Assembly (NCBI RefSeq): GCF_010367455.1
Contig: NZ_WRPR01000038.1
Location: forward strand, 1 to 64,000
Length of the DNA: 64,000 nucleotides
Origin: Candidatus Laterigemmans baculatus
Lineage (GTDB): Bacteria; Planctomycetota; Planctomycetia; Pirellulales; Pirellulaceae
Direction of reading: 5' to 3'
Below are positions 5,613 through 54,509 of this stretch, in pieces. Numbering within the stretch: position 1 is the first letter of the stretch; each line of letters opens with the position of its first letter. The position numbers were made by a program, and so were the translations under genes. A model generated the notes under the pieces. That model saw only the letters and a list, made by a program, of their open reading frames with translations. It searched no databases and was not told the DNA's origin.

Positions 5613-5657
5613 AGGTTTCTCGTTTGGTCCGCAGGCGTTGAGCTCGGTTTGCAGGCC

Positions 5658-5791
5658 CTGAGCCGACGGCGCTAGCCGCGGGTTCTGCAGCGGAAAACCG
5701 ACAGTCGCGAGGCCCGAGGCTAGCGCCGACGGCTCAAGGGAGGAACGTTTCGAGGCCCGAGGCTAGCGCCGACGGCTCAAGGGAGGAACGT
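5658..5791. repeat. GCTAGC-centred palindromic repeats, family 2, with a 43-bp tandem duplication
   Basis: One forward unit (GAGCCGACGGCGCTAGCC, 5660-5677) faces two inverted units (GGCTAGCGCCGACGGCTC within 5712-5738 and 5755-5781). The two inverted units lie in a 43-bp direct tandem duplication (about 5708-5750 and 5751-5793) whose end runs into the stop codon of metF. The same family recurs at 26053-26186, 44762-44786 and 54358-54469. Confidence 0.9.
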
Positions 5792-6664
5792 CTAGACGCT
5801 CGCCGTCTCGAGTCCCTCGAGCATCTTCTCGGCCGCCTGGCTGCGGTTCAGCACATACAGGTGCAGCCCTTCGACGCCGTCTTCGATCAGTTCGAGCATC
5901 TGGTTGCGGGCGTGCTCCACGCCGACCTCGAATTGCCACTCGGGCGAATCGTGCTCGCTGAGCCGCGCGACCAGCGTCTCCGGGAGACTGGCCTTGCACA
6001 TCGAGGCGATCTTGCGGGCCTGGGCCAGGTTCGTGATCGGCAGCAAGCCGGGAATGATCGGCACCCCGATTCCGGCCGCCCGCGCCGCATCGCGGAAGCG
6101 GAAGAAGTCTGCGTTGTTGTAGAACAGCTGGGTGATCACGACGTCCGCTCCGGCGTCGACTTTGCGCCTCAAGTTCCGCAGGTCGGTTTCGGCGTCCGGT
6201 GCTTCCTGGTGCACCTCGGGGTAACCGGCCACCGCGATCCCCATCGACGGGTGCTCGTCGCGAATCAGCTCCACCAATTCGTTGGCGTACCGCAGCCCCC
6301 CTTCGACCGCCTGGAACGACTGCTCTCCCTTCGGCGGGTCGCCACGCAAAGCGACGATCGTGTCGACTCCCCGGGCCACTGCCTCCCGCAAGTACTCGCG
6401 GAGTTCTTCGACCGTCGCTCCGACGCAGGTCAGGTGCGAAGCGACGCTCAGCCCGGTCACCCGCTGGACCCGCTCGATCACCTCCAGCGTCCGGTCGCGA
6501 CTCGACCCGCCCGCGCCGTAGGTGCAGGTGAAGAACTCGGGCTGGTAGCGGAGCAGCTTCTGGACGGTCACCTCCAGAGCCTCCATGTCGGCGGCCTGCT
6601 TCGGAGGAAAGAGCTCGAACGAGAGCCCGCGGCGAGGGGGCTGGTAAGCGTCGGAGAGCGGCAT
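5792..6664 (-). CDS. metF: 5,10-methylenetetrahydrofolate reductase
   Basis: A 290-aa FAD-dependent enzyme that reduces 5,10-methylene-THF to 5-methyl-THF, the methyl donor for methionine synthesis. It is a TIM barrel with the family signatures LSFELFPPK near the N-terminus, FFTCTYGAGGSSRDRT, SHLTCVGAT, IVALRGDPPKGE and a later DVVITQLFYNN. Both PGLLPI and the terminal HLYVLNRS are also as expected. ATG 6664 is chosen because the family begins just before the SFEFFPPK-type motif; the open frame to 6859 includes 65 residues of Arg/Gly/Pro-rich leader. Length is normal for bacterial MetF. No other methionine genes are adjacent. The stop codon lies at the edge of a tandem repeat. Confidence 0.95.
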   Translation of the reverse strand: MPLSDAYQPPRRGLSFELFPPKQAADMEALEVTVQKLLRYQPEFFTCTYGAGGSSRDRTLEVIERVQRVTGLSVASHLTCVGATVEELREYLREAVARGVDTIVALRGDPPKGEQSFQAVEGGLRYANELVELIRDEHPSMGIAVAGYPEVHQEAPDAETDLRNLRRKVDAGADVVITQLFYNNADFFRFRDAARAAGIGVPIIPGLLPITNLAQARKIASMCKASLPETLVARLSEHDSPEWQFEVGVEHARNQMLELIEDGVEGLHLYVLNRSQAAEKMLEGLETASV

Positions 6665-7143: not shown

Positions 7144-8055
7144 ATGCCCCACTCGAATTCTGGTTCCGACGCCCCCGCTGACGCTCCCACCGATGTCCCC
7201 GCTTCCGGCGAGGTTCCCGCTCCTGCTGGCGTCCCCGCCCGCCCGGAATCGACCGCCGCATCACCGACCTCCCCCTCCGCAATCCTCGGCCGGACCCCGC
7301 GCGCCCCGCTCGCGGCTCCGGCCGCAGCGAACCGAACGGTCGCCAGCGGTGAGGGGCAGGCCGCCAGCGGCGAGGGGCAGGTCGCTAGCGGTGAGGGGCA
7401 GGTCGCCAGCGGTGAGGGGCAGGTCGCCAGCGGTGAGGGGCAGGCGGGCGATGCCTCCCGCTCGACCCACGCGCTGCGGGTTTCGGGGGGCCAAGTTGTC
7501 GAAGCCGAATCGGGGGGCGATGAATTCCGCGAAGGGAATGGCGGCAAGGGAGTCCACGAGGTTCGCCTCCCGCCGATCGACGTCTCGCTCCCGCTCGAAG
7601 CGCGGCCGGCCGAGGCGATGCGGTTGGCTCAGGAGGCGTTCAATCAAACCGGCTACTGGGTCTCGTTCTACCGCGCGATCCTGGGGGTCGAGGGAGCGGT
7701 GTTCAAGCTGTTCCCGACGGCCGAGGAGATGGCCTTCTTCGAGGAGACCTCCGAGTTCGCCGAGATCCACACGATGCTGACCGCGCTCCGCGCTTCGGAC
7801 CTCGAGAAGATCGATGCGGTCGAGCCGCAGACGATGATCACGATCCGCATGCCGCGGAGTCTGCGAGCGGTGCTGGTCGAGGAGGCCAAGCCGCTGAACG
7901 TCAGCATCAACAAGCTCTGTATCAGCAAGCTGCTGCTGCCGATCAATCCCCGCTTCGTCCCGCCGGAGCGCGGCCGGGTGCGGGGCCGCAAACCGGGCGA
8001 GCAGTCGCGGAGCAATCGCGGCAAGAAAGACGCAAAGGCCAGGAAGGAAGGGTGA
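7144..8055 (+). CDS. Protein with C-terminal ribbon-helix-helix-like domain and repetitive N-terminus
   Basis: A 303-aa protein in two halves. Residues 1-125 are Pro/Ala/Ser/Gly-rich, appear disordered and include five tandem copies of VASGEGQ-type heptapeptides. Residues 135-280 are conserved-looking and globular: a helical stretch around AMRLAQEAFNQTGYWVSFYRA, then TMITIRMPRSLRAVLVEEAK and NVSINKLCISKLL. That last segment has the strand-helix-helix pattern of HicB/Arc-type ribbon-helix-helix antitoxins, so DNA binding is plausible. No partner toxin is adjacent. The C-terminal 25 residues are strongly basic. A GAAAGGA sequence 11-17 nt upstream supports the ATG. Regulator is an inference from the fold pattern only. 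Confidence 0.6.
   Translation: MPHSNSGSDAPADAPTDVPASGEVPAPAGVPARPESTAASPTSPSAILGRTPRAPLAAPAAANRTVASGEGQAASGEGQVASGEGQVASGEGQVASGEGQAGDASRSTHALRVSGGQVVEAESGGDEFREGNGGKGVHEVRLPPIDVSLPLEARPAEAMRLAQEAFNQTGYWVSFYRAILGVEGAVFKLFPTAEEMAFFEETSEFAEIHTMLTALRASDLEKIDAVEPQTMITIRMPRSLRAVLVEEAKPLNVSINKLCISKLLLPINPRFVPPERGRVRGRKPGEQSRSNRGKKDAKARKEG
7339..7443 (+). repeat. In-frame 21-bp minisatellite (5 copies)
   Basis: Five 21-bp units (7339, 7360, 7381, 7402, 7423) encode VASGEGQ or AASGEGQ. Copies are nearly identical at the DNA level, with a few silent or single substitutions, which indicates recent expansion by slippage or unequal recombination within the disordered N-terminus of the host gene. Confidence 0.95.
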
Positions 8056-8155
8056 AAGGTGAAGGGTGAAGGGTGAAGGGTGAAGGGTGAAGGGTGAAGG
8101 GTGAAGGGTGAAGGGTGAAGGGTGAAGGGTGAAGGGTGAAGGGTGAAGGGTGAAG
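8051..8155. repeat. Heptamer tandem repeat tract (GGTGAAG, about 15 copies)
   Basis: About fifteen copies of GGTGAAG fill the gap between two convergent genes. The first unit supplies the TGA stop codon (8053-8055) of the upstream gene, and the tract stops 5 bp before the stop codon of the minus-strand anti-sigma gene. Because 7 is not a multiple of 3, the tract reads as an open 7-residue repeat in several frames, creating large spurious reading frames on the minus strand. Confidence 0.97.
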
Positions 8156-8160
8156 AGTCG

Positions 8161-9528
8161 TTACTCGTCTGCGGCGTTTGGCGAGGGCTCGATCGGGAGG
8201 AGCACGATGACGACGACTTCTTCGATCGCTTCTTCGGCGGGTGCTGCGGGTGAGGGGGGGGCCGCGGGTGAGGGGGGCGTGCGGGTGAGGCCTCGGAACT
8301 CGGGCTCGGCGGGTTGCGAGCCGAGTTCTTGGCGGCCCTGGCCGATCCGCTCGTCGAGCGACTGCAGCAGGCTGGTGAGCCGCTGCGGAGACGCCTCGAC
8401 CAGGACGGCCACCGGAGGCACGCGCGCCCCCAGGGCATCCTGTGCAAACCGGGGCGCCGCATTGTCGCGGCTCCAGGAAAGCTGGCTGTCATTCTCGCCA
8501 CCACCGATCCAGCGGAGGAGCGGCTCGATCTCTCCCGCGGGGACCTCGAAGACGATCCGCGGAGCCGCGGCCAGTCGCCGCGCGGAACTCGGCTCCACGA
8601 GTGCCTCGGCCAACTTCCTCTCCCGCTCATCCTCTGCAGCTTTGGCTTCGCCGCTGGCCCGCTTGCCACTGGCCGCTTCCCCACTGGCCGCTTCCCCACT
8701 GGCCGCTTCCCCACTGGCCGCTTCCGCGCTGGCTGGCGCTTCGAGCGGTTGTAGGCGGAGACGCTCGTCGGCTTGGGACAGCTGGAACAGCTGCGTATTG
8801 GCGGGAAGAGGGGCCTGCGGCTCGCGGCCCGGCCCTGCGCCTCCCATTCCCATCGCTTCGAGGCCTTCCGTGCGGCTAGCGCCTCCCATGCCGCCAGTGC
8901 CCCGCATGCCGCCAGCGGCTCGCATGGTCTCTGGGGCCCGCATGGTCTCTGGGGCCCGCATGGTCTCTGGAGCTCGCATGGTCTCTGGGGCCCGCATGGT
9001 CTCTGGGGCCCGCATGGTCTCCGCGTCTTGGCGGTCTTCGGCAAAGTACGCTTGGCTGCGGCGCAGCGGCGGTTCGCTAAGACGCGTCTCGGCTCCGAGC
9101 ATCGCCTCGGCATCTGGCGCTGCTTCGCTCGCTGCGGGCTGGGGACCGAGCGAGTCCAGCCGAGCCACGTCGTCGCTCTGGCGGAGCGAAGCGAACGAGA
9201 GCATCGCCAGTCCGCTGGCGGCCAGCGCCAAGGGGAGCCAGAGGTGCCAGCCGGGGCGCGACCGTTCGAGCCGCGCGGTGTCTCCGGGGGCGGCGGGAGC
9301 GTCGGCCTGGGCAGCGGTGATGCGGCGGCGGACCTCCATGACGGGATCGGACGAGAACGATTCACGCGGCAGTGTCGCCAGGCGAGTCCGCAGTTCGCCG
9401 AGCTTGCGGAGCGTCTCGCGGTGTTCCTCGTGTTCGGCGAGTTGCCGTTCGACGAGGGCTCGTTCTTCCGCCGTCAACTCGTCGTCGAGGTAGGCGGTCA
9501 GCAGCGATTCATCGAACTCCGTATTCAC
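8161..9528 (-). CDS. Anti-sigma factor-like membrane protein with internal peptide repeats
   Basis: A 455-aa protein encoded directly after an ECF sigma factor. The sigma stop and this GTG start overlap as GTGA, so translation is probably coupled. Residues 1-60 (ESLLTAYLDDELTAEERALVE, then helices with an EHEEHRETLRKL segment) match the N-terminal sigma-binding domain of anti-sigma factors, without the HxxxCxxC zinc motif. One membrane segment lies near residues 94-113. The periplasmic part holds six ETMRAP repeats and four EAASG repeats, low-complexity Gly/Met and Ala-rich stretches, and a more ordered C-terminal domain around RIVFEVPAGEIEPLLRWI and VAVLVEASPQRLTSLLQSL. It likely holds its sigma factor inactive at the membrane until a signal arrives; the signal is unknown. 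Confidence 0.75.
   Translation of the reverse strand: MNTEFDESLLTAYLDDELTAEERALVERQLAEHEEHRETLRKLGELRTRLATLPRESFSSDPVMEVRRRITAAQADAPAAPGDTARLERSRPGWHLWLPLALAASGLAMLSFASLRQSDDVARLDSLGPQPAASEAAPDAEAMLGAETRLSEPPLRRSQAYFAEDRQDAETMRAPETMRAPETMRAPETMRAPETMRAPETMRAAGGMRGTGGMGGASRTEGLEAMGMGGAGPGREPQAPLPANTQLFQLSQADERLRLQPLEAPASAEAASGEAASGEAASGEAASGKRASGEAKAAEDERERKLAEALVEPSSARRLAAAPRIVFEVPAGEIEPLLRWIGGGENDSQLSWSRDNAAPRFAQDALGARVPPVAVLVEASPQRLTSLLQSLDERIGQGRQELGSQPAEPEFRGLTRTPPSPAAPPSPAAPAEEAIEEVVVIVLLPIEPSPNAADE
8666..8725 (-). repeat. In-frame 15-bp minisatellite (4 copies, degenerate flanks)
   Basis: Four exact 15-bp units, with degraded copies on each side (8651-8665 and 8726-8740), encode EAASG repeats in the periplasmic region of the anti-sigma protein. 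Confidence 0.93.
8921..9022 (-). repeat. In-frame 18-bp minisatellite (about 6 copies)
   Basis: Units starting at 8921, 8939, 8957, 8975, 8993 and 9011 encode ETMRAP repeats. Only one full copy (8957) carries substitutions, so the array is young. It lies in the anti-sigma gene just after the membrane segment. Confidence 0.94.
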
Positions 9529-10280: not shown

Positions 10281-10459
10281 ATCAGCCGCCACGCGCTAGC
10301 CCGGATTATTCATCAGCCGCCGGGCGCTAGCCCCCGGTTCCCCGAAGCGCCGTGGGAACCGGACGCTAGCGCGTGGCGGCTGATTAAAACAAGAACCGGA
10401 CGCTAGCGCGTGGCGGCTGATTAAAACAAAAACCGGACGCTAGCGCGTGGCGGCTGATG
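10281..10459. repeat. GCTAGC-centred palindromic repeats, family 1 cluster
   Basis: Five units share the core CAGCCGCCACGCGCTAGC or its complement. Two forward units (10281-10300, 10311-10331) face three inverted ones (near 10361-10384, 10396-10422, 10431-10459); the last three form a direct tandem of about 35 bp. The cluster fills the gap between the ECF sigma gene and the stop codon of lgt. Related copies lie at 22517-22592, 29003-29107, 32713-32818 and a half copy at 44703-44722. Confidence 0.92.
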
Positions 10460-10502
10460 AAACAAGGTGCCAGCACAACGGCTGCGCGGTCCGCGGCTGG
10501 GT

Positions 10503-22331: not shown

Positions 22332-22516
22332 ATTTAGGGGTTCCCTTCGCTAATTGCGGGCGCGTGCCCTGCGCTGAATGAGGACGCATGTACGTGCGGA
22401 TTGTAAGAATCCAGAGTCTAAAACGTCAACGAAGGGCAGAATCGGCTCCTGCACCCCCCGGAAGAGCTGGTCGGGCCCCGGAGGAGCTTGTCGGGCCGTC
22501 ACGGAACCGTTTGTCA

Positions 22517-22592
22517 AATCAGCCGCCACGCGCTAGCATCCGGTTATCACGGCGTTCTCGGGAACCGGGGGCTAGCGCCCGGCGGCTGATGA
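22517..22592. repeat. GCTAGC-centred palindromic repeat, family 1
   Basis: A forward unit CAGCCGCCACGCGCTAGC and an inverted unit GCTAGCGCCCGGCGGCTG flank a short centre containing ACGGCGTT. The element sits between the divergent-like start of acs and the stop codon of the minus-strand hypothetical gene (22628). Confidence 0.92.
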
Positions 22593-22627
22593 ATCGTTCG
22601 GGCTCGCCCGAGGCTGGCGTCTGCAGC

Positions 22628-26023: not shown

Positions 26024-26052
26024 ACGCTGGTCGCCTTTCGCGACTCCCTCCC

Positions 26053-26186
26053 TTGAGCCGTAGGCGCTAGCCTCGGGCCCAGTCCGGTCCGCGTCATGGG
26101 CAAGCGATGCATCGCGGGGGCGATTACTCGCGGGCGCGATCCATTCGGCAGCGCGACGGAACCCGCGGCTAGCGCCGTCGGCTCAA
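26053..26186. repeat. GCTAGC-centred palindromic repeat pair, family 2
   Basis: A forward unit near 26053-26076 (GAGCCGTAGGCGCTAGCC) and an inverted unit near 26162-26185 (GGCTAGCGCCGTCGGCTC) lie about 85 bp apart between the convergent Uma2 and ParA genes. Confidence 0.88.
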
Positions 26187-27968: not shown

Positions 27969-29003
27969 GTGTCCGACGCCACCGCCCCCTACGATTCGTT
28001 CCTGCTCGTCTCCTTTGGCGGACCCGAAGGCCCGGACGAGGTGATCCCCTTTTTGGAGAACGTTCTGCGGGGCAAGAACGTGCCCCGCGAGCGGATGATG
28101 GAGGTCGCCGAGCACTACCAGAGCTTTGGCGGGGTCAGCCCGATCAATCAGCAGAACCGAGAGTTGATCGAGGCGATCCGCGGCGAGTTCGACCGCAGCG
28201 GAATCGAATTGCCGATCTACTGGGGCAACCGGAATTGGCATCCGACGTTGCCCGAGACGCTGCGGCAGATGCGCGACGATGGCCGACGTCGTGCACTCGC
28301 CTTTTTCACCAACATGTTCAGCAGCTACAGCGGCTGCCGGCAGTACCGCGAGAACATTGCCGCCGCTCAGGAGGAAGTTGGGGAGGGGGCTCCGGTCGTC
28401 GAGAAGGTTCGCTTCGGGTTCAACCACCCCGGGTTCATCGAAGCGAGCCGAGAGCGGGTGCGGACCGCGCTGGCCGAGCTCGAAGGCGTCTCCCCCGAGC
28501 AGGTCACGATTCTGTTCACCGCCCACAGCATTCCGATGGCGATGGCCGCCAACTGTGACTACGAAATGCAGCTTCGCGAGAGCTGCCGGTTGGTCGCCGA
28601 TGGCGTCGAGGCTGGACCCTGGCGGTTGGTTTTCCAAAGCCGCAGCGGACCGCCGCAGCAACCCTGGCTCGAACCCGACGTGTGCGATGCGATTCGCCAG
28701 GGGCACGCCGAAGGCCAGCTCAAGGCGCTCGTGATCGTGCCGATTGGCTTCGTCAGCGACCACATGGAAGTGCTGTACGATCTCGATGAGGAAGCCGCGA
28801 CGCTCTGCCGCGAGCTCGGCCTGCCGATGCGGCGAGCCGGCGCGGTGGGGACGCATCCCGAGTTCGTGCGGATGATCGGCAGCCTGGTCCTCGAGCGGCT
28901 GGACCCGACCGGCCAGCGGCCGGCGCTCGGAGAACTCCCCGCGTGGCACGATGTCTGCCCGACCAACTGCTGCCTGTACACACCCCAGCGACCGAGTCGC
29001 TGA
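27969..29003 (+). CDS. hemH: Ferrochelatase
   Basis: A 344-aa enzyme inserting Fe2+ into a porphyrin in the last or penultimate step of haem synthesis. It begins at GTG 27969. The N-terminal SFLLVSFGGPEGPDEV, the metal-site His in TILFTAHSIPMAMA and the GFVSDHMEVLYDLDEE segment with its catalytic Glu are diagnostic. CPTNCCLYTP near the end contributes three Cys residues, possibly a [2Fe-2S]-like or structural site. Whether it uses protoporphyrin IX or coproporphyrin III cannot be settled by eye. No other haem gene is adjacent. Family-1 palindromic repeats begin at its stop codon. Confidence 0.94.
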   Translation: MSDATAPYDSFLLVSFGGPEGPDEVIPFLENVLRGKNVPRERMMEVAEHYQSFGGVSPINQQNRELIEAIRGEFDRSGIELPIYWGNRNWHPTLPETLRQMRDDGRRRALAFFTNMFSSYSGCRQYRENIAAAQEEVGEGAPVVEKVRFGFNHPGFIEASRERVRTALAELEGVSPEQVTILFTAHSIPMAMAANCDYEMQLRESCRLVADGVEAGPWRLVFQSRSGPPQQPWLEPDVCDAIRQGHAEGQLKALVIVPIGFVSDHMEVLYDLDEEAATLCRELGLPMRRAGAVGTHPEFVRMIGSLVLERLDPTGQRPALGELPAWHDVCPTNCCLYTPQRPSR

Positions 29004-29107
29004 TCCGCCGCCGGGCGATAGGCCGGATTATTCATCAGCCGCCGGGCGCTAGCCCCCGGTTTCTAAAAAACGCCGTGACAACCGGACGCTAGCGCGTGGC
29101 GGCTGAT
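29003..29107. repeat. GCTAGC-centred palindromic repeats, family 1
   Basis: A degraded forward unit (29003-29027), a good forward unit (29034-29052) and an inverted unit (29089-29107) around AACGCCGT. The array starts at the hemH stop codon and ends 18 bp before the stop codon of the convergent TPR gene. Confidence 0.9.
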
Positions 29108-29125
29108 TCGGACCTTGCCCCCCCC

Positions 29126-32159: not shown

Positions 32160-32670
<511 letters not shown>

Positions 32671-32712
32671 TTTCGGCAACACCCCAACGTTCACTGCGTC
32701 AATTCTCACATA

Positions 32713-32818
32713 ATCAGCCGCCACGCGCTAGCGTCCGGTTTCCAAAAACGCTGTAAAAACCGGACGCTAGCGCGTGGCGGCTGATGATTAATCCAGGCTA
32801 GCGGCCGGCGGCTGATGG
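32713..32818. repeat. GCTAGC-centred palindromic repeats, family 1
   Basis: A forward unit (32713-32733), an inverted unit (32764-32785) and a diverged inverted unit (32797-32817) lie between rnpB and the stop codon of the next minus-strand gene. The last unit ends 2 bp before that stop codon (32820-32822). Confidence 0.9.
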
Positions 32819-33594: not shown

Positions 33595-34119
33595 ATGGCG
33601 CAGACGTCCCAATCGGAATTATCGATCGGCTTCTACACCGTCGAGCAATCGGACACGCTCGGGTGGACCGGGGGATATTTGGTGCTGAACCACGGGGGCC
33701 GCCCGCTGGAGTTTCACTGCACGTTGCCGGTCCGGCCGACGCGGGCGCACGAGATCCTCTACGGCTCCACCCTGCGGGCGCACCTGATTGGCGAGCGGAT
33801 CGGCGGAATTTTGATCAAGCAGGCGCGGGTGCAGCCGCTGTTGATCTGCAGCGACCAGCCCGAGGCGCTCCGGCTGGCCGATCACCTCGACACCCCGGTC
33901 GCCCTGGTCGGCGACCCAGCCGGCCGGCTCGAGACGCACGTGCCGACGATCGCAGCCGAGCACCCCAAACATGCGCTGCGGATCGAGGCGCGGTTCGCCA
34001 CCCGCGTCCGCCAATCGCTCGAGCAGATGGCGGACCTGCCCGACTTCGACGAGCCCTTCACGCGGATTCGCGAAGCCATCCGCGAAGCCCAGCAAGGAGC
34101 CACGGCACGAGCCGCCTAG
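33595..34119 (+). CDS. Hypothetical protein upstream of the SNF2 helicase
   Basis: A 174-aa protein I cannot assign. Residues 1-75 are strand-rich (LSIGFYTVEQSDTLGWTGGYLVLNHGGRPLEF); residues 80-120 look alpha/beta (VQPLLICSDQPEALRLAD, DTPVALVGDPAGRLE); the C-terminus is a charged helix. No signal peptide is seen. It lies 142 bp upstream of the SNF2 gene on the same strand, but the gap contains a long palindrome that probably ends its transcript, so co-transcription is doubtful. The stop codon TAG overlaps the edge of that dispersed element. Confidence 0.65.
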   Translation: MAQTSQSELSIGFYTVEQSDTLGWTGGYLVLNHGGRPLEFHCTLPVRPTRAHEILYGSTLRAHLIGERIGGILIKQARVQPLLICSDQPEALRLADHLDTPVALVGDPAGRLETHVPTIAAEHPKHALRIEARFATRVRQSLEQMADLPDFDEPFTRIREAIREAQQGATARAA

Positions 34120-34240
34120 CCGGACGGCGCCACTTCGGATTGGTTCGGAGCAAGACGGCTCGCGGAAAAATCGTTTAACGGCAAGCCGAAGGCGACTGCT
34201 TTTTAAAACACAGTCGCCTTCGGCTTGCCGTTAAACGACT
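34120..34240. repeat. Long palindromic element, copy A
   Basis: Perfect 27-bp arms (34172-34198 and 34211-34237) surround a 12-bp AT-rich loop CTTTTTAAAACA. About 50 bp of left flank (from about 34120) is also shared with copy B at 44483-44604, which lies in the opposite orientation. The element starts at the stop codon of the upstream gene and ends 21 bp before the SNF2 start. The stem should act as a very strong transcriptional hairpin on either strand. Confidence 0.95.
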
Positions 34241-34260
34241 AGGTAGCCAACTGCTGGTCA

Positions 34261-36207
34261 ATGCTGACGTTATCTATTCCCTCCACCAGCCCCTCCTCCA
34301 GGCGAGCCCCGGCGATGGACTTCCTCCGCACCGCGACGCACTTCACCCGCCGCCCCAAGCCGATCGCGGCGACCGACGGCGACTCCGTCCCCGGCGTCCA
34401 AGTTGCGGAACGGGCTGCCAGCGAACCATCGCTCGCCGGCGAAGCCAGCCCGCCGCTGGAGATCGTGGCGGGGCCTTCTTGGTTCGCCGGCGAGGATCGG
34501 GCGCTGCGGGTCGACGTCGAGACGCTCGAGGTCGCACTCCCCGAATTCCGGGCGATTCCGGTGCGGCTCCGCGACATCCCCGTCAAAACGACCGGCTTTC
34601 AGTTTCCCGAGTCGCCGGCATGGGGGCTGCGAAAGAAAAAGGATGACAACGAACGGTCGGACGGAGAACACGCTCGCACTGGAGAGGCAACCGCCGAGTG
34701 CGACCCGGCGCGGGCCGCGGAGCAGGCCGCCGCACGGCAAGCGGTTCGCAAGAAACTGACGCGGCTGCGGCCGCCACGCGACATCGTCAAACTGCAGGAC
34801 CGTTTGTACTACTTGCTCCAGCCGCCGCTGGAACAGTTGGTCGGCAGCGGCGAACTGACCTTTCCCTTCGAGCCGTTCCCGTATCAGTTCGATGGGATTG
34901 CCTTTCTCTTTCCCCGCTACGCCGCGGTCCTGGCCGACGAGATGGGGTTGGGCAAGACGATGCAGGCGATCAGCACGATGCGGATGCTGCTGTTCAGCGG
35001 CGAAGTCAGCAGCATTCTGTTGGTCTGCCCCAAACCGCTGGTGACCAACTGGCAGCGCGAGCTCCGCGTCTGGGCTCCGGAGGTTCCGGTCGCGATCATC
35101 GAAGGGGATGCCAACCGCCGCGAGTGGTTGTGGCGGAATCCAGCCGCCCCGGTGAAGATCGCTAACTACGAACTGTTGATGCGCGACCGGGAACTGATCC
35201 TCGAAGGCGGTTTGCACTTCGATTTAGTCGCGCTCGACGAAGCCCAGCGGATTAAGAACCGCAATAGCACGACCAGCGAAATCGCTCGCGCGATTCCCAG
35301 AACTCGCTCCTGGGCGCTGACCGGAACTCCGGTCGAAAACAGCCCCGAGGATCTGGTGGGGATCTTTGAGTTTTTGTCGCCAGGTTATCTCACTCCCGAT
35401 ATGAATCTCCGCACGATCGCCCAAGCGGCGGGAGATTATATTTTGCGGCGGACCAAAGATATGGTCCTCGATGATATGCCGCCAAAAATGTATCGCGATG
35501 CCGATCTGGATCTCACCCCCGAGCAGTGGGCGACTTATGAGAAAGCGGAGAAAGAGGGTGTCGTCGATCTCCAGGAGATGGAGCAAGAGCTGACGATCCA
35601 ACACGTCTTTGAACTCGTGCTGCGGTTAAAACAGATCTGCAACTTCGATCCGGTCACCGGCGCCAGCAGCAAACTCGAACGCTTGGTCGCCGACATGGAA
35701 GAGATCGCGGCGAGTGGTCACAAAGCAATTGTATTCAGCCAGTGGGTCAACAGTATCGATCAAATGCGGCCGGCGCTCGAACGCTTCAACCCGGTCGAGT
35801 ATCACGGGCGGATTCCGCACAAGAAACGCGACGGCGTGATCGATCGCTTTAAGAACGATCCGGAGTGCAGCATGATCCTGATGAGCTATGGCGCGGGGAG
35901 CGTGGGGCTGAATCTGCAGTTCTGCCAGTATGTCTTTCTGTTCGACCGCTGGTGGAATCCGGCAATCGAAGATCAAGCGATCAACCGTGCCCACCGGATC
36001 GGCGCCGCGGGACCAGTGACCGTCACGCGGATGCTGGCGATGAACACGATCGAGCAGCGGATCGCCGATGTGCTGGACATGAAGCGACAGATGTTCGATG
36101 CGATTTTCTCCGATGCCGACGGTCCCAAAGCGGCTGGAGGTTTGACCCGTGAGGAGATCTTCAGCCTGTTCAATCTGAAGACCCGCAGCGGTAAGAAGAT
36201 CGGCTAA
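34261..36207 (+). CDS. SNF2 family DEAD/DEAH-box helicase-like ATPase
   Basis: A 648-aa Swi2/Snf2 ATPase that remodels protein-DNA complexes rather than unwinding strands. Walker A lies in VLADEMGLGKTMQAISTM, the DEAH-like motif II is LVALDEAQRIKN, motif III is WALTGTPVENSPEDL, and RRTKDMVLDDMPPKM follows. The C-terminal RecA lobe carries HKAIVFSQWVNSID, YHGRIPHKKRDGVIDRF, LMSYGAGSVGLNLQFC and DRWWNPAIEDQAINRAHRIG. The N-terminal 200 residues are a lineage-specific domain with no metal-binding SWIM cysteines. The start could be ATG 34261 or 34315 (MDFLRTATHF). Bacterial members act in transcription or DNA repair. Confidence 0.92.
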   Translation: MLTLSIPSTSPSSRRAPAMDFLRTATHFTRRPKPIAATDGDSVPGVQVAERAASEPSLAGEASPPLEIVAGPSWFAGEDRALRVDVETLEVALPEFRAIPVRLRDIPVKTTGFQFPESPAWGLRKKKDDNERSDGEHARTGEATAECDPARAAEQAAARQAVRKKLTRLRPPRDIVKLQDRLYYLLQPPLEQLVGSGELTFPFEPFPYQFDGIAFLFPRYAAVLADEMGLGKTMQAISTMRMLLFSGEVSSILLVCPKPLVTNWQRELRVWAPEVPVAIIEGDANRREWLWRNPAAPVKIANYELLMRDRELILEGGLHFDLVALDEAQRIKNRNSTTSEIARAIPRTRSWALTGTPVENSPEDLVGIFEFLSPGYLTPDMNLRTIAQAAGDYILRRTKDMVLDDMPPKMYRDADLDLTPEQWATYEKAEKEGVVDLQEMEQELTIQHVFELVLRLKQICNFDPVTGASSKLERLVADMEEIAASGHKAIVFSQWVNSIDQMRPALERFNPVEYHGRIPHKKRDGVIDRFKNDPECSMILMSYGAGSVGLNLQFCQYVFLFDRWWNPAIEDQAINRAHRIGAAGPVTVTRMLAMNTIEQRIADVLDMKRQMFDAIFSDADGPKAAGGLTREEIFSLFNLKTRSGKKIG

Positions 36208-42373: not shown

Positions 42374-44452
42374 ATGAGCGCCAGCCGTTCTGAAGACCTG
42401 ATTCTTTCCCCGCAGGCGAGCCCCGAAGAGCTCGATGCACTCGCCCGCCAGATCCGCGTGTGGGTACTGAAGTCGACCCACGCGGCCGCCTCGGGCCACC
42501 CCACCTCGGCTTTGTCGGCCGTCGAGCTGATGACCGCACTGTGTTTTGGAGGGATCTTGCGGTATGACCCCCACGAGCCGGAGGCCCCCAACAACGACCG
42601 CTTGATTTTCTCCAAAGGGCACGCTTCGCCGCTGCTGTATGCCCTCTGGGCCGCTGCGGGTGAAGTGAGTGAAGAGGAGCTGATGACGTACCGGCAGTTC
42701 GACAGCCGTTTGGAAGGGCACCCCACCTCTCGGTTTTCCTACGCCGAGGCGGCAACCGGCTCGCTCGGCCAAGGGCTTTCGATCGGGTTGGGGATGGCGT
42801 TGGCTGCGAAGAAACTCGATTCGCTCGACTACCGCACCTTTGTGCTGCTCGGCGATAGCGAGATGGCCGAGGGTTCGAACTGGGAAGCGATCCAGCTGGC
42901 GGCCCACTACGGTCTCGATAATCTCATCGGGATCCTCGACGTCAACCGTCTCGGCCAGCGCGGTGAGACGATGTACGGCCATGACCTCGAAGCGTATCGA
43001 AAGCGGGTCGAGCCGTTCGGGTGGCGAACGGTGATGATCGAAAACGGGCATGACCATGCCCAGATCCTCGACGCGCTGCGGCAGGCAACTGCTGCGGATG
43101 GGCGGCCGGTGATGGTGATCGCCCACACGGAAAAAGGACATGGCGTCTCGTTTCTGGCGGACCAGGATGGACGGCACGGCAAAGCGCTCGGCGACGATGA
43201 GCTGGGTAAAGCGTTGGCCGAGCTGGGCAAAGTCGAGCGACGCATTCGAGGCACGCTGGCATCCCCCTCGCAGAGCGAAGCCGCCACGAGTCGGGCTGCA
43301 AACGCCTCTGCCGGAAAATCTCCCCGACGCTCCACCGACGATGGGGCTCCGCGAGCGTCGATTCGCTGGGGAAGCGAGTACAAAATCGGCGAGGAAGTCG
43401 CCACGCGTGCCGCTTACGGTAAGGCGCTCGCACGGCTGGGCGAGCTCTATCCGCAGCTGGTTGCCCTCGACGGCGAGGTCTCCAACTCCACGCACAGCGA
43501 AGAGCTGAAAAAGAAACATCCCGAACGGTTCTTCGAGATGTACATCGCCGAGCAGAACATGGTGGGAACCGCCGTGGGAATGGCTTTGCGAGGCAAGCTG
43601 CCTTTCGTCTCTACGTTCGCCGCCTTCTTCAGCCGCGCGTTCGATCAGATCCGGATGAGCCCCCACAGCGGCGCTAACGTAAAATTCATCGGCTCCCATG
43701 CCGGCGTCTCGATCGGCGAAGACGGGCCCTCGCAGATGGGGCTCGAAGACATCGCCCTGTTCCGCTCCGTCGCCGACAGCGTCGTGCTCTATCCGTGCGA
43801 CGCGGTCTCGACCGAGCATTTGGTCGCGGCGATGGCGGACCATGAAGGCTTGGCCTACCTCCGCACGACGCGCGGAAAGACGCCGGTGATCTACAACCCG
43901 GAGGAGCCGTTCCCGATTGGCGGAGCCAAGGTGCTGCGGTCCAACGATGAAGACCAGATGACGATCGTCGCGGCAGGCATCACGGTGCACGAGGCCCTGA
44001 AGGCCTCCGACCAATTGCTCGATGAGGGAATTCGCGCCCGCGTCATCGACCTGTACTCCATCAAACCGATCAACCACCCCACGCTCGAAGCCGCCGCTCG
44101 CGAGACCGGGCGGATTCTGACGGTCGAAGACCATTATGCGGCAGGCGGGCTCGGTGAAGCGGTCTGCCACGCGCTGAGCGACAATACGGTCGCCATCCGC
44201 TGCCTCGCCGTCGACCGCCGACCACGCAGCGGCACGCCCGAGCGGTTGCTCGAGAGTTCGGGAATTTCCGCTGCACGGATTGTCGAAGCGGCTCGCCGCT
44301 GGCTCCGAGGTTCGCGGGAAGACGCCTCCGCTGACGGTAGTGGAAAGTCGAAGTCGCGGATCGATTTCCGGCGGGACGGCAAAGACGAAGTTGAGATCGC
44401 CTCGGAACAGAGCTTCCCCGCCAGCGATGCCCCCGGCTGGACCGGCACCTAG
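42374..44452 (+). CDS. tkt: Transketolase with a C-terminal SFPASD-type tail
   Basis: A 692-aa thiamine-diphosphate enzyme of the pentose phosphate pathway, transferring two-carbon ketol units. Motifs are SKGHASPLLYALWAAAG, the TPP/Mg motif GDSEMAEGSNWEAIQL to DVNRLGQ, MYIAEQNMVGTAVGMAL with the catalytic Glu, and HAGVSIGEDGPSQMGLEDIA. The sequence is closer to the human-type or split transketolases than to E. coli TktA. Two features are extra: a Ser/Ala/Arg linker at about residues 297-325, between the two halves, and a C-terminal extension ending EIASEQSFPASDAPGW, a motif known mostly as a stand-alone small protein. A 5' gap of 91 bp separates it from the polyketide synthase; co-transcription is possible. 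Confidence 0.93.
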   Translation: MSASRSEDLILSPQASPEELDALARQIRVWVLKSTHAAASGHPTSALSAVELMTALCFGGILRYDPHEPEAPNNDRLIFSKGHASPLLYALWAAAGEVSEEELMTYRQFDSRLEGHPTSRFSYAEAATGSLGQGLSIGLGMALAAKKLDSLDYRTFVLLGDSEMAEGSNWEAIQLAAHYGLDNLIGILDVNRLGQRGETMYGHDLEAYRKRVEPFGWRTVMIENGHDHAQILDALRQATAADGRPVMVIAHTEKGHGVSFLADQDGRHGKALGDDELGKALAELGKVERRIRGTLASPSQSEAATSRAANASAGKSPRRSTDDGAPRASIRWGSEYKIGEEVATRAAYGKALARLGELYPQLVALDGEVSNSTHSEELKKKHPERFFEMYIAEQNMVGTAVGMALRGKLPFVSTFAAFFSRAFDQIRMSPHSGANVKFIGSHAGVSIGEDGPSQMGLEDIALFRSVADSVVLYPCDAVSTEHLVAAMADHEGLAYLRTTRGKTPVIYNPEEPFPIGGAKVLRSNDEDQMTIVAAGITVHEALKASDQLLDEGIRARVIDLYSIKPINHPTLEAAARETGRILTVEDHYAAGGLGEAVCHALSDNTVAIRCLAVDRRPRSGTPERLLESSGISAARIVEAARRWLRGSREDASADGSGKSKSRIDFRRDGKDEVEIASEQSFPASDAPGWTGT

Positions 44453-44482
44453 TCGCCTTTCGCTCCGCGAAAGTAGCGCAAT

Positions 44483-44604
44483 CGTTTAACGGCAAGCCGA
44501 AGGCGACTGCTTTTTAAAACACAGTCGCCTTCGGCTTGCCGTTAAACGATTTTTCCGCGAGCCGTCCTGCTTCGAACCAATCCAAAGTGGCGCTGTCCAG
44601 CTAG
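44483..44604. repeat. Long palindromic element, copy B
   Basis: Perfect 27-bp arms (44483-44509 and 44522-44548) around the loop CTTTTTAAAACA, followed by a flank (44549-44604) matching the reverse complement of copy A's flank at 34120-34171 with about six substitutions. The loop has the same plus-strand orientation in both copies although the flanks are inverted. It begins 30 bp after the transketolase stop and ends at a CTAG used as target by a MITE-like element. Confidence 0.95.
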
Positions 44605-44702
44605 GCTCTGTCAGAAGACCCGTAATGACACCCTCCCCCCGGGAGGGTCGCGAGGAACGAGCGGGGAGGGGGTAATGCCAAAAGGGAGTTTTCTGACAGA
44701 GC
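44605..44702. mobile_element. 98-bp MITE-like element with 12-bp TIRs and CTAG duplication
   Basis: Perfect terminal inverted repeats GCTCTGTCAGAA (44605-44616) and TTCTGACAGAGC (44691-44702) are bounded by CTAG on both sides (44601-44604 and 44703-44706). CTAG target duplications fit the YTAR preference of IS5-type transposases. The interior is non-coding and includes the 42-nt CCCTCCCC/GGGGAGGG hairpin sequence also found at 19212-19254. Deleting it and one CTAG rejoins a family-1 palindromic half repeat. No transposase is in the window. Confidence 0.72.
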
Positions 44703-44786
44703 CTAGCGCGTGGCGGCTGATTCCTCACCTGATTTCGCGACGTTCTGTGCGCGTGGACAATCCGCGGCTAGCGCCGTCGGCTCAAG
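44703..44786. repeat. Half copies of family 1 and family 2 GCTAGC repeats
   Basis: CTAGCGCGTGGCGGCTGATT (44703-44722) is the right half of a family-1 unit, interrupted by the MITE-like element. GGCTAGCGCCGTCGGCTC (44768-44785) is a family-2 half unit. The remaining 44787-44906 has no recognisable feature before the pseudopilin operon. Confidence 0.85.
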
Positions 44787-52841: not shown

Positions 52842-54362
52842 ATGGAAATGATACTCACCGCACTCGAGCAAGTTTTTCTCGACCCCCGCGTGTGGATCGT
52901 GTGTCTGCTGAGCGCGGTGTATGGGATTTTTATCGGCGCGGTTCCCGGTCTGACGGCGACGATGGCGGTGGCGTTATTCGTCCCCATGACATTTTGGATG
53001 GACGACCTGTTGTCGATCACGGCGATCGTCACGATGACGGCCTGCGCTATTTTTGCAGGCGATGTGCCCACTGCGCTGTTGCGAATCCCCGGCACGCCCG
53101 CCAGCGCCGCCTACGCAGATCAAATGTACGCTCTGACCCAGCGGGGCCGAGCCAGCAGTGCGCTCTGCGTTTCTTTGGTCCACAGCGTGGTGGGAGGATT
53201 GCTGGGAGCGGTGGTGCTAATTTTTCTAGGACGCAGCTTGGCTGGATATGCGGCCGAGTTCAGCGTCGCGGAATATTTTTGGCTGTATCTGCTGGGGCTC
53301 AGCTCGGCGGTGGTCGTGACACGCGGCCCAGCCCTCAAAGCGTTGTTCGGTCTTCTCGTCGGTCTGATGTTGGCGACCGTGGGGCTGAGCGCTGTGCATG
53401 CCTCGCCGCGATTCACCTTCGGTCAACCCGAGTTGTATCAGGGAATCAATTTCATCCCAGCGATGATCGGCTTGTTCGGTCTCTCGGAGATTCTCGCAAA
53501 CCTTCTCTCGAGCGGCAGGGAAACCGCAGCGGCGACCGGTGCAGCCCCGGCGGCCAGCGACTCGTCGCTCTGGGGAGCCTTGGCCGTGGCGGGGCGTAAG
53601 CTGAAAAGCCGCTTCCTCGGCGTGGGCCGCTCGGGGGCCGTCGGCGCGGCGATTGGGACGCTGCCTGGAGCGGGAGCCGACATCGCCGCCTGGGTCTCGC
53701 TGGCCGCCAGCCGCAGAGGTCCTGACCAGGACTTGGAGGAGCAGGAACTCGCCGACGTGGCGGACGCCGCGACCGCCAATTCGGCGGCGCTGGCTGGAGC
53801 CTGGATTCCGTCCCTGGTATTCGGAATCCCCGGCGATTCGGTGACCGCGATGGTGATCGGCGTGCTGCTGATGAAAAATATCACTCCCGGTCCGACGATC
53901 TATGAAAACAACGGAGCGCTCGTCTACAGCATCTATTTAATGTTCATCCTGGCAAACTTGATGTTGATCCCCGTTGGGCTGCTGGCGATTCGGCTCGGTG
54001 GGCTCGTCGTGCGGATTCCCAAGCGAGTGCTGCTGCCGATCATTTTGCTGTTCTGTCTGATCGGCGCGTTCGCGATCAATGGCAGTTATTTTGACGTCTA
54101 CACGATGCTGGGTTGCGGTGTGCTGGGATTGATTCTCGATCGCCGGCAGATCCCGCTCGGTCCAGTGGTGCTCGGTATCGTGCTTGGAGGGGCCGTCGAA
54201 GAGCGATTCATTCAGGCTGTCACCGCCGCCGATGGATCGCCGCTGGCGCTGGTGAGCCGGCCGGTCTCGGTCGTGCTCGCACTGCTCTGCCTCGGCCTCT
54301 GGAGCTGGCGGATTTTCTCCCACTGGTATCGACCTGGTGTAAACTCGTTTTCCAAACCTTGA
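52842..54362 (+). CDS. tctA: Tripartite tricarboxylate transporter large membrane subunit
   Basis: A 506-aa polytopic permease of the TctA family, about 12 membrane helices. Signatures are FIGAVPGLTATMAVALFVPMT, ALLRIPGTPASAAYADQM, IGTLPGAGADIAAWVSLAAS and VFGIPGDSVTAMVIGVLLMK. ATG 52842 starts 1 bp after the fusion gene's stop codon; the frame from 52689 is a shadow of the TctB part. Together with the upstream fusion it makes a complete two-polypeptide, proton/sodium-driven importer. The TGA stop codon (54360-54362) lies inside the first palindromic repeat unit. Confidence 0.95.
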   Translation: MEMILTALEQVFLDPRVWIVCLLSAVYGIFIGAVPGLTATMAVALFVPMTFWMDDLLSITAIVTMTACAIFAGDVPTALLRIPGTPASAAYADQMYALTQRGRASSALCVSLVHSVVGGLLGAVVLIFLGRSLAGYAAEFSVAEYFWLYLLGLSSAVVVTRGPALKALFGLLVGLMLATVGLSAVHASPRFTFGQPELYQGINFIPAMIGLFGLSEILANLLSSGRETAAATGAAPAASDSSLWGALAVAGRKLKSRFLGVGRSGAVGAAIGTLPGAGADIAAWVSLAASRRGPDQDLEEQELADVADAATANSAALAGAWIPSLVFGIPGDSVTAMVIGVLLMKNITPGPTIYENNGALVYSIYLMFILANLMLIPVGLLAIRLGGLVVRIPKRVLLPIILLFCLIGAFAINGSYFDVYTMLGCGVLGLILDRRQIPLGPVVLGIVLGGAVEERFIQAVTAADGSPLALVSRPVSVVLALLCLGLWSWRIFSHWYRPGVNSFSKP

Positions 54363-54469
54363 GCCGACGGCGCTAGCCGCGGGTGCTGGGGCGGAAAGCC
54401 GGAGGTGCGTGCGAGGCCCGAGGCTAGCGCCTACGGCTCAGGGCCCGAGGCTAGCGCCGACGGCTCAGG
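54358..54469. repeat. GCTAGC-centred palindromic repeats, family 2
   Basis: A forward unit (54360-54384) and two inverted units (54413-54440 and 54441-54469) lie between tctA and the cytochrome gene. The first unit contains the stop codon of tctA. The two inverted units are tandem copies differing by one base in the GCGCCTAC/GCGCCGAC core. Confidence 0.92.
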
Positions 54470-54509
54470 GCATTTTGACGATTCGATCACTTGCGCGCGT
54501 GAGACTGAT

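Follow-up and report, generated by a model that had tools for sequence, protein, structure and literature searches.

REPINs are already known as doublets of inverted REP palindromes that form a hairpin around a short, less conserved spacer and lie dispersed in the genome (PMC3116915). They are paired with a gene for a tyrosine-transposase-like protein (RAYT) that is flanked by the same repeats (PMC3116915, PMC3733652). A plethora of RAYT-type genes with flanking repeats has been recorded in R. baltica, and RAYT-like genes between terminal repeats lacking GTAG have been termed TIRYT; the same source also notes REP dimers within longer palindromes in A. variabilis and H. neapolitanus (PMC3733652). 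The spread of REP sequences has itself been called poorly understood (PMC8266576). A different kind of mobile DNA is represented by the IS701 family, almost all members of which make a target duplication of exactly 4 bp (PMC2266710). Finally, template switching between the arms of inverted repeats is reported to invert the spacer while homogenising the arms; among yeast genes the arms were already perfect in nine of ten cases and the inversion was repeated in four genes (PMC8604942), and template switching has likewise been described for rRNA hairpins, where Bacteria furnish cases in which only the loop is inverted (PMC8794818). None of the three, whether REPINs, IS701 elements or the inversion of spacers through template switching, is new in itself.

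The locus described here lies in a window of 64,000 nucleotides from Candidatus Laterigemmans baculatus, the whole stretch of DNA that was analysed. The window contains two copies of a nested element, a REPIN inside an IS701-family MITE, and we consider it likely that the loop of this REPIN was inverted by template switching or by orientation-blind exchange through its perfect arms. What is new is the recurrent inversion of the loop in a REPIN family and the repeated nesting of palindromic repeats in one IS701-type MITE. Small inversions recur in chloroplast genomes, where they are compared between species at single loci, in contrast to the multi-copy family within one bacterial genome presented here; the papers on them mention hairpins or stem-loops too. 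Searches of open-licence papers turned up no report of an inverted REPIN loop, and 'invers' at the start of a word has 0 occurrences in two REPIN papers (PMC3116915 and PMC8049555).

The two window copies (34116-34238 and 44480-44604) are inverted relative to each other, with 93% complementarity over 125 nt (34114-34238 against 44482-44606), and their loops read the same on the plus strand, just as the earlier note had observed. Read in direct orientation, their inner 70 nt (34169-34238 and 44480-44549) show 100% identity as well. Since the copies are inverted outside and directly identical inside, the loop must be inverted relative to its flanks in one of them (Table 1). The perfect arms noted previously are present, though they measure 28 bp (copy 1) and 30 bp (copy 2) rather than 27, and the repeated unit exceeds the roughly 120 bp given for the pair, since the full form elsewhere in the genome extends over about 190 bp (TAGCTGGACAGCGCCACTTT ... 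hairpin ... AAAGTGGCGCTGTCCAGCTA in the best-preserved copies). The 12-nt loop and its reverse complement are alike except at 4 of the 12 positions. When up to 3 mismatches are allowed, a 19-nt arm pattern has 4 matches in the window, compared with 0.05 on average in 100 shuffles, and the folding z-scores are -13.9 for copy 1 (as single-strand DNA) and -11.8 for copy 2 (as RNA). No terminator-like match was found near either copy by a scan that takes only loops of 3-8 and is thus blind to a hairpin with a 12-nt loop.

Table 1. Features of the two nested elements, in window coordinates
Feature	Position	Strand	Remarks
MITE left end, copy 1	34116..34136	+	CTAG (YTAR target) and terminal inverted repeat CCGGACGGCGCCACTTC
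MITE left internal flank, copy 1	34137..34170	+	asymmetric; supplies the orientation
Left REP arm of REPIN hairpin, copy 1	34171..34198	+	28 nt; same sequence as the REPs around the RAYT-like gene
Loop, copy 1	34199..34210	+	12 nt, CTTTTTAAAACA; 'C' orientation, the sense of the RAYT unit
Right REP arm, copy 1	34211..34238	-	inverted
MITE right internal flank, copy 1	34239..34273	+	similarity to the full form stops about here, without the right terminal repeat (by eye)
Small separate palindrome	44450..44479	.	TAGTCGCCTTTCGCTCCGCGAAAGTAGCGC; replaces the right flank of copy 2
REP arm, copy 2, low-coordinate side	44480..44509	+	30 nt
Loop, copy 2	44510..44521	-	12 nt, CTTTTTAAAACA on the plus strand; TGTTTTAAAAAG relative to its own flank, i.e. 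'T' orientation, inverted
REP arm, copy 2, high-coordinate side	44522..44551	-	30 nt
MITE left internal flank, copy 2	44552..44583	-	element on the minus strand
MITE left end, copy 2	44584..44604	-	terminal repeat CTGGACAGCGCCACTTT (minus strand) and CTAG

In both window copies a TAG at the end of an element also serves as stop codon for the ORF before it: that at 34117-34119, within the MITE left end of copy 1, terminates ORF 33595-34119, and that at 44450-44452, within the small palindrome beside copy 2, terminates ORF 42374-44452. A similar overlap with stop codons has been observed for GTAG REPs (PMC3733652). Sequence resembling the small palindrome is also present at three other loci (L025, L062 and L094).

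Judged by its ends and target sites, the outer element is an IS701-family MITE of about 190 bp, with terminal repeats of about 17 bp and 4-bp YTAR target duplications. Of 72 distinct end pairs, drawn from the loci of every genome fetched, 50 carry the same 4 nt on either side, in each case YTAR, the designation of the IS701 target. The terminal repeat, with at most one mismatch, is present in 34 of the 396 genomes of the order that were searched, as against one match in each of two genomes for the reversed control. In two genomes (G128 and G375; loci L118 and L119) the same ends bound elements of 1.6-1.8 kb with IS701-type transposase genes. Both genes are split over ORF pieces that score 142.8 and 60.7 bits (L118) and 142.9 and 143.2 bits (L119) against NF033540, each below the cut-off of 150 bits, which holds for the whole protein. 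It is the presence of transposase genes within the same ends, together with the 4-bp YTAR duplications, that places the outer element in the IS701 family; a tentative assignment to IS630/Tc1-mariner was replaced after these results. The element shares with that family the 4-bp duplications and, in full-length relatives with the same ends, an IS701/DDE_5 transposase, and differs from it in being non-autonomous, only about 190 bp long, devoid of a transposase and occupied by a palindromic repeat. No IS701 transposase above the cut-off was found in the genome to which the window belongs (a draft, 96% complete), where the best match reaches 28.5 bits at a locus with no close match to the MITE ends. 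As a MITE can be a relic, a missing autonomous partner is compatible with this membership.

The hairpin inside the MITE looks like a REPIN, and is best read as a doublet of inverted REP palindromes: two inverted REPs are separated by a short spacer, are predicted to fold as a hairpin, and are dispersed and numerous in a single genome, with 69 places. Furthermore, the same REPs flank a RAYT-like gene of this genome, an ORF of 210 aa (G000:C30:41611-42240, locus L166) with three exact direct REP copies (TCGTTTAACGGCAAGCCGAAGGCGACTGCTTTT) upstream and one exact inverted REP, preceded by GAAACA, downstream. Its product scores 49 bits against NF047646, the model of REP-associated tyrosine transposases (cut-off 80, E 5.7e-13), and 21.6 bits against PF01797 (Y1_Tnp; cut-off 23), and a search of solved structures gave 0 matches at E up to 1. 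The REP arm, TCGTTTAACGGCAAGCCGAAGGCGACTG, carries no terminal GTAG tag, and hence the system is REPIN-like with a gene of the terminal-repeat type, rather than a classical GTAG REP. The loop is best read as the left end of the RAYT unit (CTTTTT) joined to its right end (AAAACA), a correspondence that fixes 'C' as the reference orientation. The REPIN is the non-autonomous counterpart of this unit, which in its complete version in this genome carries the RAYT-like gene. In comparison with the REPIN/RAYT systems described so far, the family differs in its REP without GTAG, in a RAYT-like protein below the curated cut-off, in a loop that takes either orientation with respect to a shared flank, and in being carried within an IS701-type MITE.

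Homologues of the RAYT-like protein were found in three other genomes, at 61% (G028), 59% (G042) and 51% (G025) identity, those of G028 and G042 with internal stops, and all three adjoin repeats of their own, of the form CGTTTARC...GCCGNAGGC. A similar arm motif with other loops is present in 6 genomes among 60 relatives (G003, G013, G014, G015, G016 and G024), in G013 as one weak match. A search of these for a RAYT homologue found none in G003, G013, G014, G015 and G024 and only a weak one in G016. The five genomes thus have REP arms (L031 and L033-L036) and no RAYT match, and their transposase may have been lost, left unassembled or diverged.

Across the window's own genome (5.76 Mb in 153 contigs), the arm-loop-arm pattern with a 12-nt loop and up to 3 mismatches marks the 69 places mentioned above, against 0 for the reversed-pattern control. 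From the fetched loci and their flanks we tabulated 60 distinct hairpins, oriented by the flanks where possible and excluding those truncated by contig ends and those where an arm has over 5 mismatches; 54 of these rows match the 69-place pattern, and the other 6 have another loop length or more mismatches. In one of the scans behind the locus retrieval 40 of 213 candidates were scored, so the family may be larger. In a wider collection of genome contigs the hairpin pattern had no match, and the terminal-repeat pattern marked at least 74 stretches. The arms are perfectly complementary in 33 of the 60 copies. In all 47 copies that have both flanks they keep 94-100% similarity to the consensus, even beside flanks that are hardly more alike than chance, although these 47 were found mostly via the hairpin, which favours conserved hairpins and inflates the figure. 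Accordingly, the contention of the earlier note that perfect arms imply a recent origin was rejected: arm conservation beside diverged flanks points instead to constraint, homogenisation or independent mobility. Correction of the arms can be seen in compensated cells, which number 9, all at site 18, versus 32 one-sided cells over all sites, and such compensated pairs may also descend from a single event.

Inversion of the loop is repeated across the assembled genome. At all four diagnostic sites, 59 of the 60 loops fit either the C form (CT...CA) or its reverse complement, the T form (TG...AG), and the remaining loop deviates at a single site. Copies with an orientation margin of at least 20 number 40, comprising 27 C and 13 T, and five loop haplotypes are seen in both orientations among copies with a margin of at least 19. 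The suggestion that the loop had been turned round by an inversion is thereby borne out. For tests on a tree and on haplotypes we used the 30 copies that are oriented with a margin of 19 or more and have 40 nt or more of flank on each side. Orientation requires 10 changes on the flank tree of these 30 rows, versus a mean of 10.0-10.1 for shuffled labels (bootstrap 8-11), on a tree that is poorly resolved, with a short alignment and few well-supported branches, and whose starred branches force only 1 change. Within what this poorly resolved tree can show, loop orientation is hence unrelated to the ancestry of the flanks. Such a missing link had been foreseen as an outcome of drift in a near-palindromic loop; the lack of a link stands, within the resolution of the tree, but its cause is repeated inversion or orientation-blind exchange rather than drift. 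Rare loop haplotypes do not track the flanks either, the mean flank distance being 0.41 against 0.40 when shuffled (7 pairs), and four of the five rare haplotypes with multiple copies occur in both orientations. Exchange between copies accounts for this at least as well as inversion in place does, and the shared haplotypes together with the conserved arms suggest copy exchange or independent movement of the core.

An independent replicate comes from G047, a Pirellulales genome of another family, in which the hairpin is unrelated, spans 67 nt and has a 17-nt loop. One copy (L150) carries, in exactly inverted form, the loop of two others (L145 and L146) with closely similar flanks, and 3 of the 14 copies with a margin of at least 10 are inverted (L046, L150 and L158; 19 tabulated). 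Loop inversion is therefore not peculiar to one hairpin sequence. The loop haplotype here tracks the flank group (6/7 versus 0/12, p 0.0003; among well-oriented copies only, 5/6 versus 0/8, p 0.003), whereas orientation does not, which argues for inversion in place. Compensated arm cells number 12 in this genome, against 10 one-sided. Its RAYT homologue was considered as the source of the hairpin within the MITE and set aside, the gene being flanked by a different hairpin. By eye, no loop flips were found among a handful of comparable MITEs from Rhodopirellula sp. JC639, where the arms are imperfect, and from Aporhodopirellula.

The contents of the MITE vary among genomes. Bounded by the same ends are: 1) the unrelated hairpin of G047; 2) palindromes containing GCTAGC in G333; 3) doublets starting CGTAGCTAC in Rhodopirellula sp. 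JC639 and in G310; and 4) a GTTTAACGGCAAGCCG-type REPIN with a different loop in Neorhodopirellula pilleata (L198). Enclosed repeats were matched to a RAYT gene in the window's own genome only. One IS701-type MITE end, common to Pirellulales genomes, thus encloses different palindromic repeats, which would be spread via a second transposase. A query made by joining the two flanks found no empty-site MITE among the 14 of 124 candidates scored in the window's own genome. Its single full-length match, L038 (G000:C139:21775-21902), is a MITE copy in which most of the hairpin has been deleted between the near-repeats CGGCTCGC and CGGCTTGC.

On the reading we favour, a REPIN core of two inverted REPs (arms of 28-30 bp) around a 12-bp loop would have lodged in an IS701-family MITE, and the spread of the MITE would have carried it round the genome. 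The core may formerly have been mobilised by the RAYT, and the outer MITE by an IS701 transposase. The loop would be inverted when a replication fork changes template within one arm and comes back in the other, or alternatively when the core undergoes exchange with another copy via the palindromic arms; because the arms are perfect inverted copies, either event inverts the loop and leaves the outside sequence unchanged. We infer one or the other to be the cause. As in the spacer inversions of yeast genes and rRNA hairpins, the change is exact, lies between perfect arms and recurs in parallel, while the yeast arms are 10-16 bp with spacers of 2-5 bp (PMC8604942), compared with 25-30 bp and 12-17 nt here, and what sets the present case apart from those studies (PMC8604942, PMC8794818) is also that it involves many paralogous copies of a mobile element. 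Point mutation of a near-palindromic loop could be imagined to reach the opposite reading, as only the 4 diagnostic positions of the 12 need change; this would leave intermediates, but no copy is half-way at the four sites, and the 17-nt loop of G047 inverts exactly. Drift is accordingly rejected, and we are practically certain that it played no such part. An inverton, in which a site-specific recombinase acting on the arms carries out a programmed inversion, would likewise have an invertible segment bounded by perfect inverted repeats. Against this, neither window copy has a promoter-like match nearby, and orientation varies over many loci with unlike flanks as well as in an unrelated hairpin. 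We hold such a system to be highly improbable, and the best explanation of the loop inversion is one without a programmed switch.

Could the inverted loops instead have been created in the computer? A short-read assembly may choose the wrong loop orientation between identical arms, and the many copies at contig ends of the 153-contig draft indicate that the repeat did break the assembly. However, 12 of the 13 well-oriented inverted copies (all except L009) sit within contigs that provide flank on either side, diverged and private loop variants are found inverted, and G047 displays the same inversion in contigs whose names (k99) suggest a final k-mer longer than its 67-nt hairpin; an artefact is decidedly unlikely as the general cause, though some copies may be misassembled. 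We think it very unlikely that REPINs were inserted independently, in both orientations, at the same site of the outer MITE. The same-REP-type REPIN in a different MITE context in N. pilleata would accord with this, but no empty site was seen among the candidates scored, L038 being a deletion, and where the flanks align (by eye) the REPIN-MITE junction is the same in both loop orientations. It is possible, if rather doubtful, that cores are refreshed by other REPIN copies, through ectopic gene conversion or RAYT-mediated replacement via a single-stranded hairpin, the symmetric arms letting a donor pair either way. The consensus-like arms beside flanks of near-chance similarity, the rare haplotypes common to copies with unrelated flanks, and the presence of most of these haplotypes in both orientations are all in favour of such refreshing. 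On the other hand, the haplotypes of G047 speak for in-place inversion, short loops made of A/T runs can gain one variant twice, and the arm conservation is inflated by locating copies through the hairpin. Rather unlikely, and put forward tentatively, is a process in which REPIN cores continually overwrite one another in either orientation, by RAYT-cut hairpins or palindrome-seeded conversion. If true, the loop flips would be the footprint of REPIN persistence without new insertions, and continual overwriting would explain near-identical arms in copies with fully diverged surroundings.

Because both the loop and the outer flanks are asymmetric and the copies run to dozens, the family keeps a record of inversions, so that genome sequences alone suffice to measure how fast in-place template switching and conversion between copies proceed relative to each other. 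The genome is, in this sense, a natural record of the flipping of palindromic DNA.

Several further repeats were observed in the window. Directly past the MITE end of copy 2 lies a palindromic element at 44601-44706 (CTAGGCTCTGTCAGAA...TTCTGACAGAGCCTAG, with an inner CCCTCCCCCCGGGAGGG palindrome), the CTAG being common to both. Ends like those of this element abut several MITE copies in the same genome, and also in G047, G128 and G171, as would be seen if two families sharing a target inserted each at the ends of the other. An Rfam search over the whole window matched only RNase P, a bacterial class A RNA gene at 32235-32662. A second family of palindromic doublets (ATCAGCCGCCACGCGCTAGCGTCCGGTT ... 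inverted) occupies 10281-10466, 22497-22614, 29003-29115 and 32710-32793, and includes a hairpin at 32710-32788 that is almost perfect and, at 10356-10466, a 37-bp tandem. A third palindromic-repeat family (TTGAGCCGACGGCGCTAGCCGCGGGTT and variants) is found at 5643-5793, 26047-26186, 44754-44785 and 54344-54481. Short tandem arrays are present at 1-105, 7338-7465, 8019-8186 and 8865-9026, with copy spacings of 14, 21, 14 and 18, respectively.
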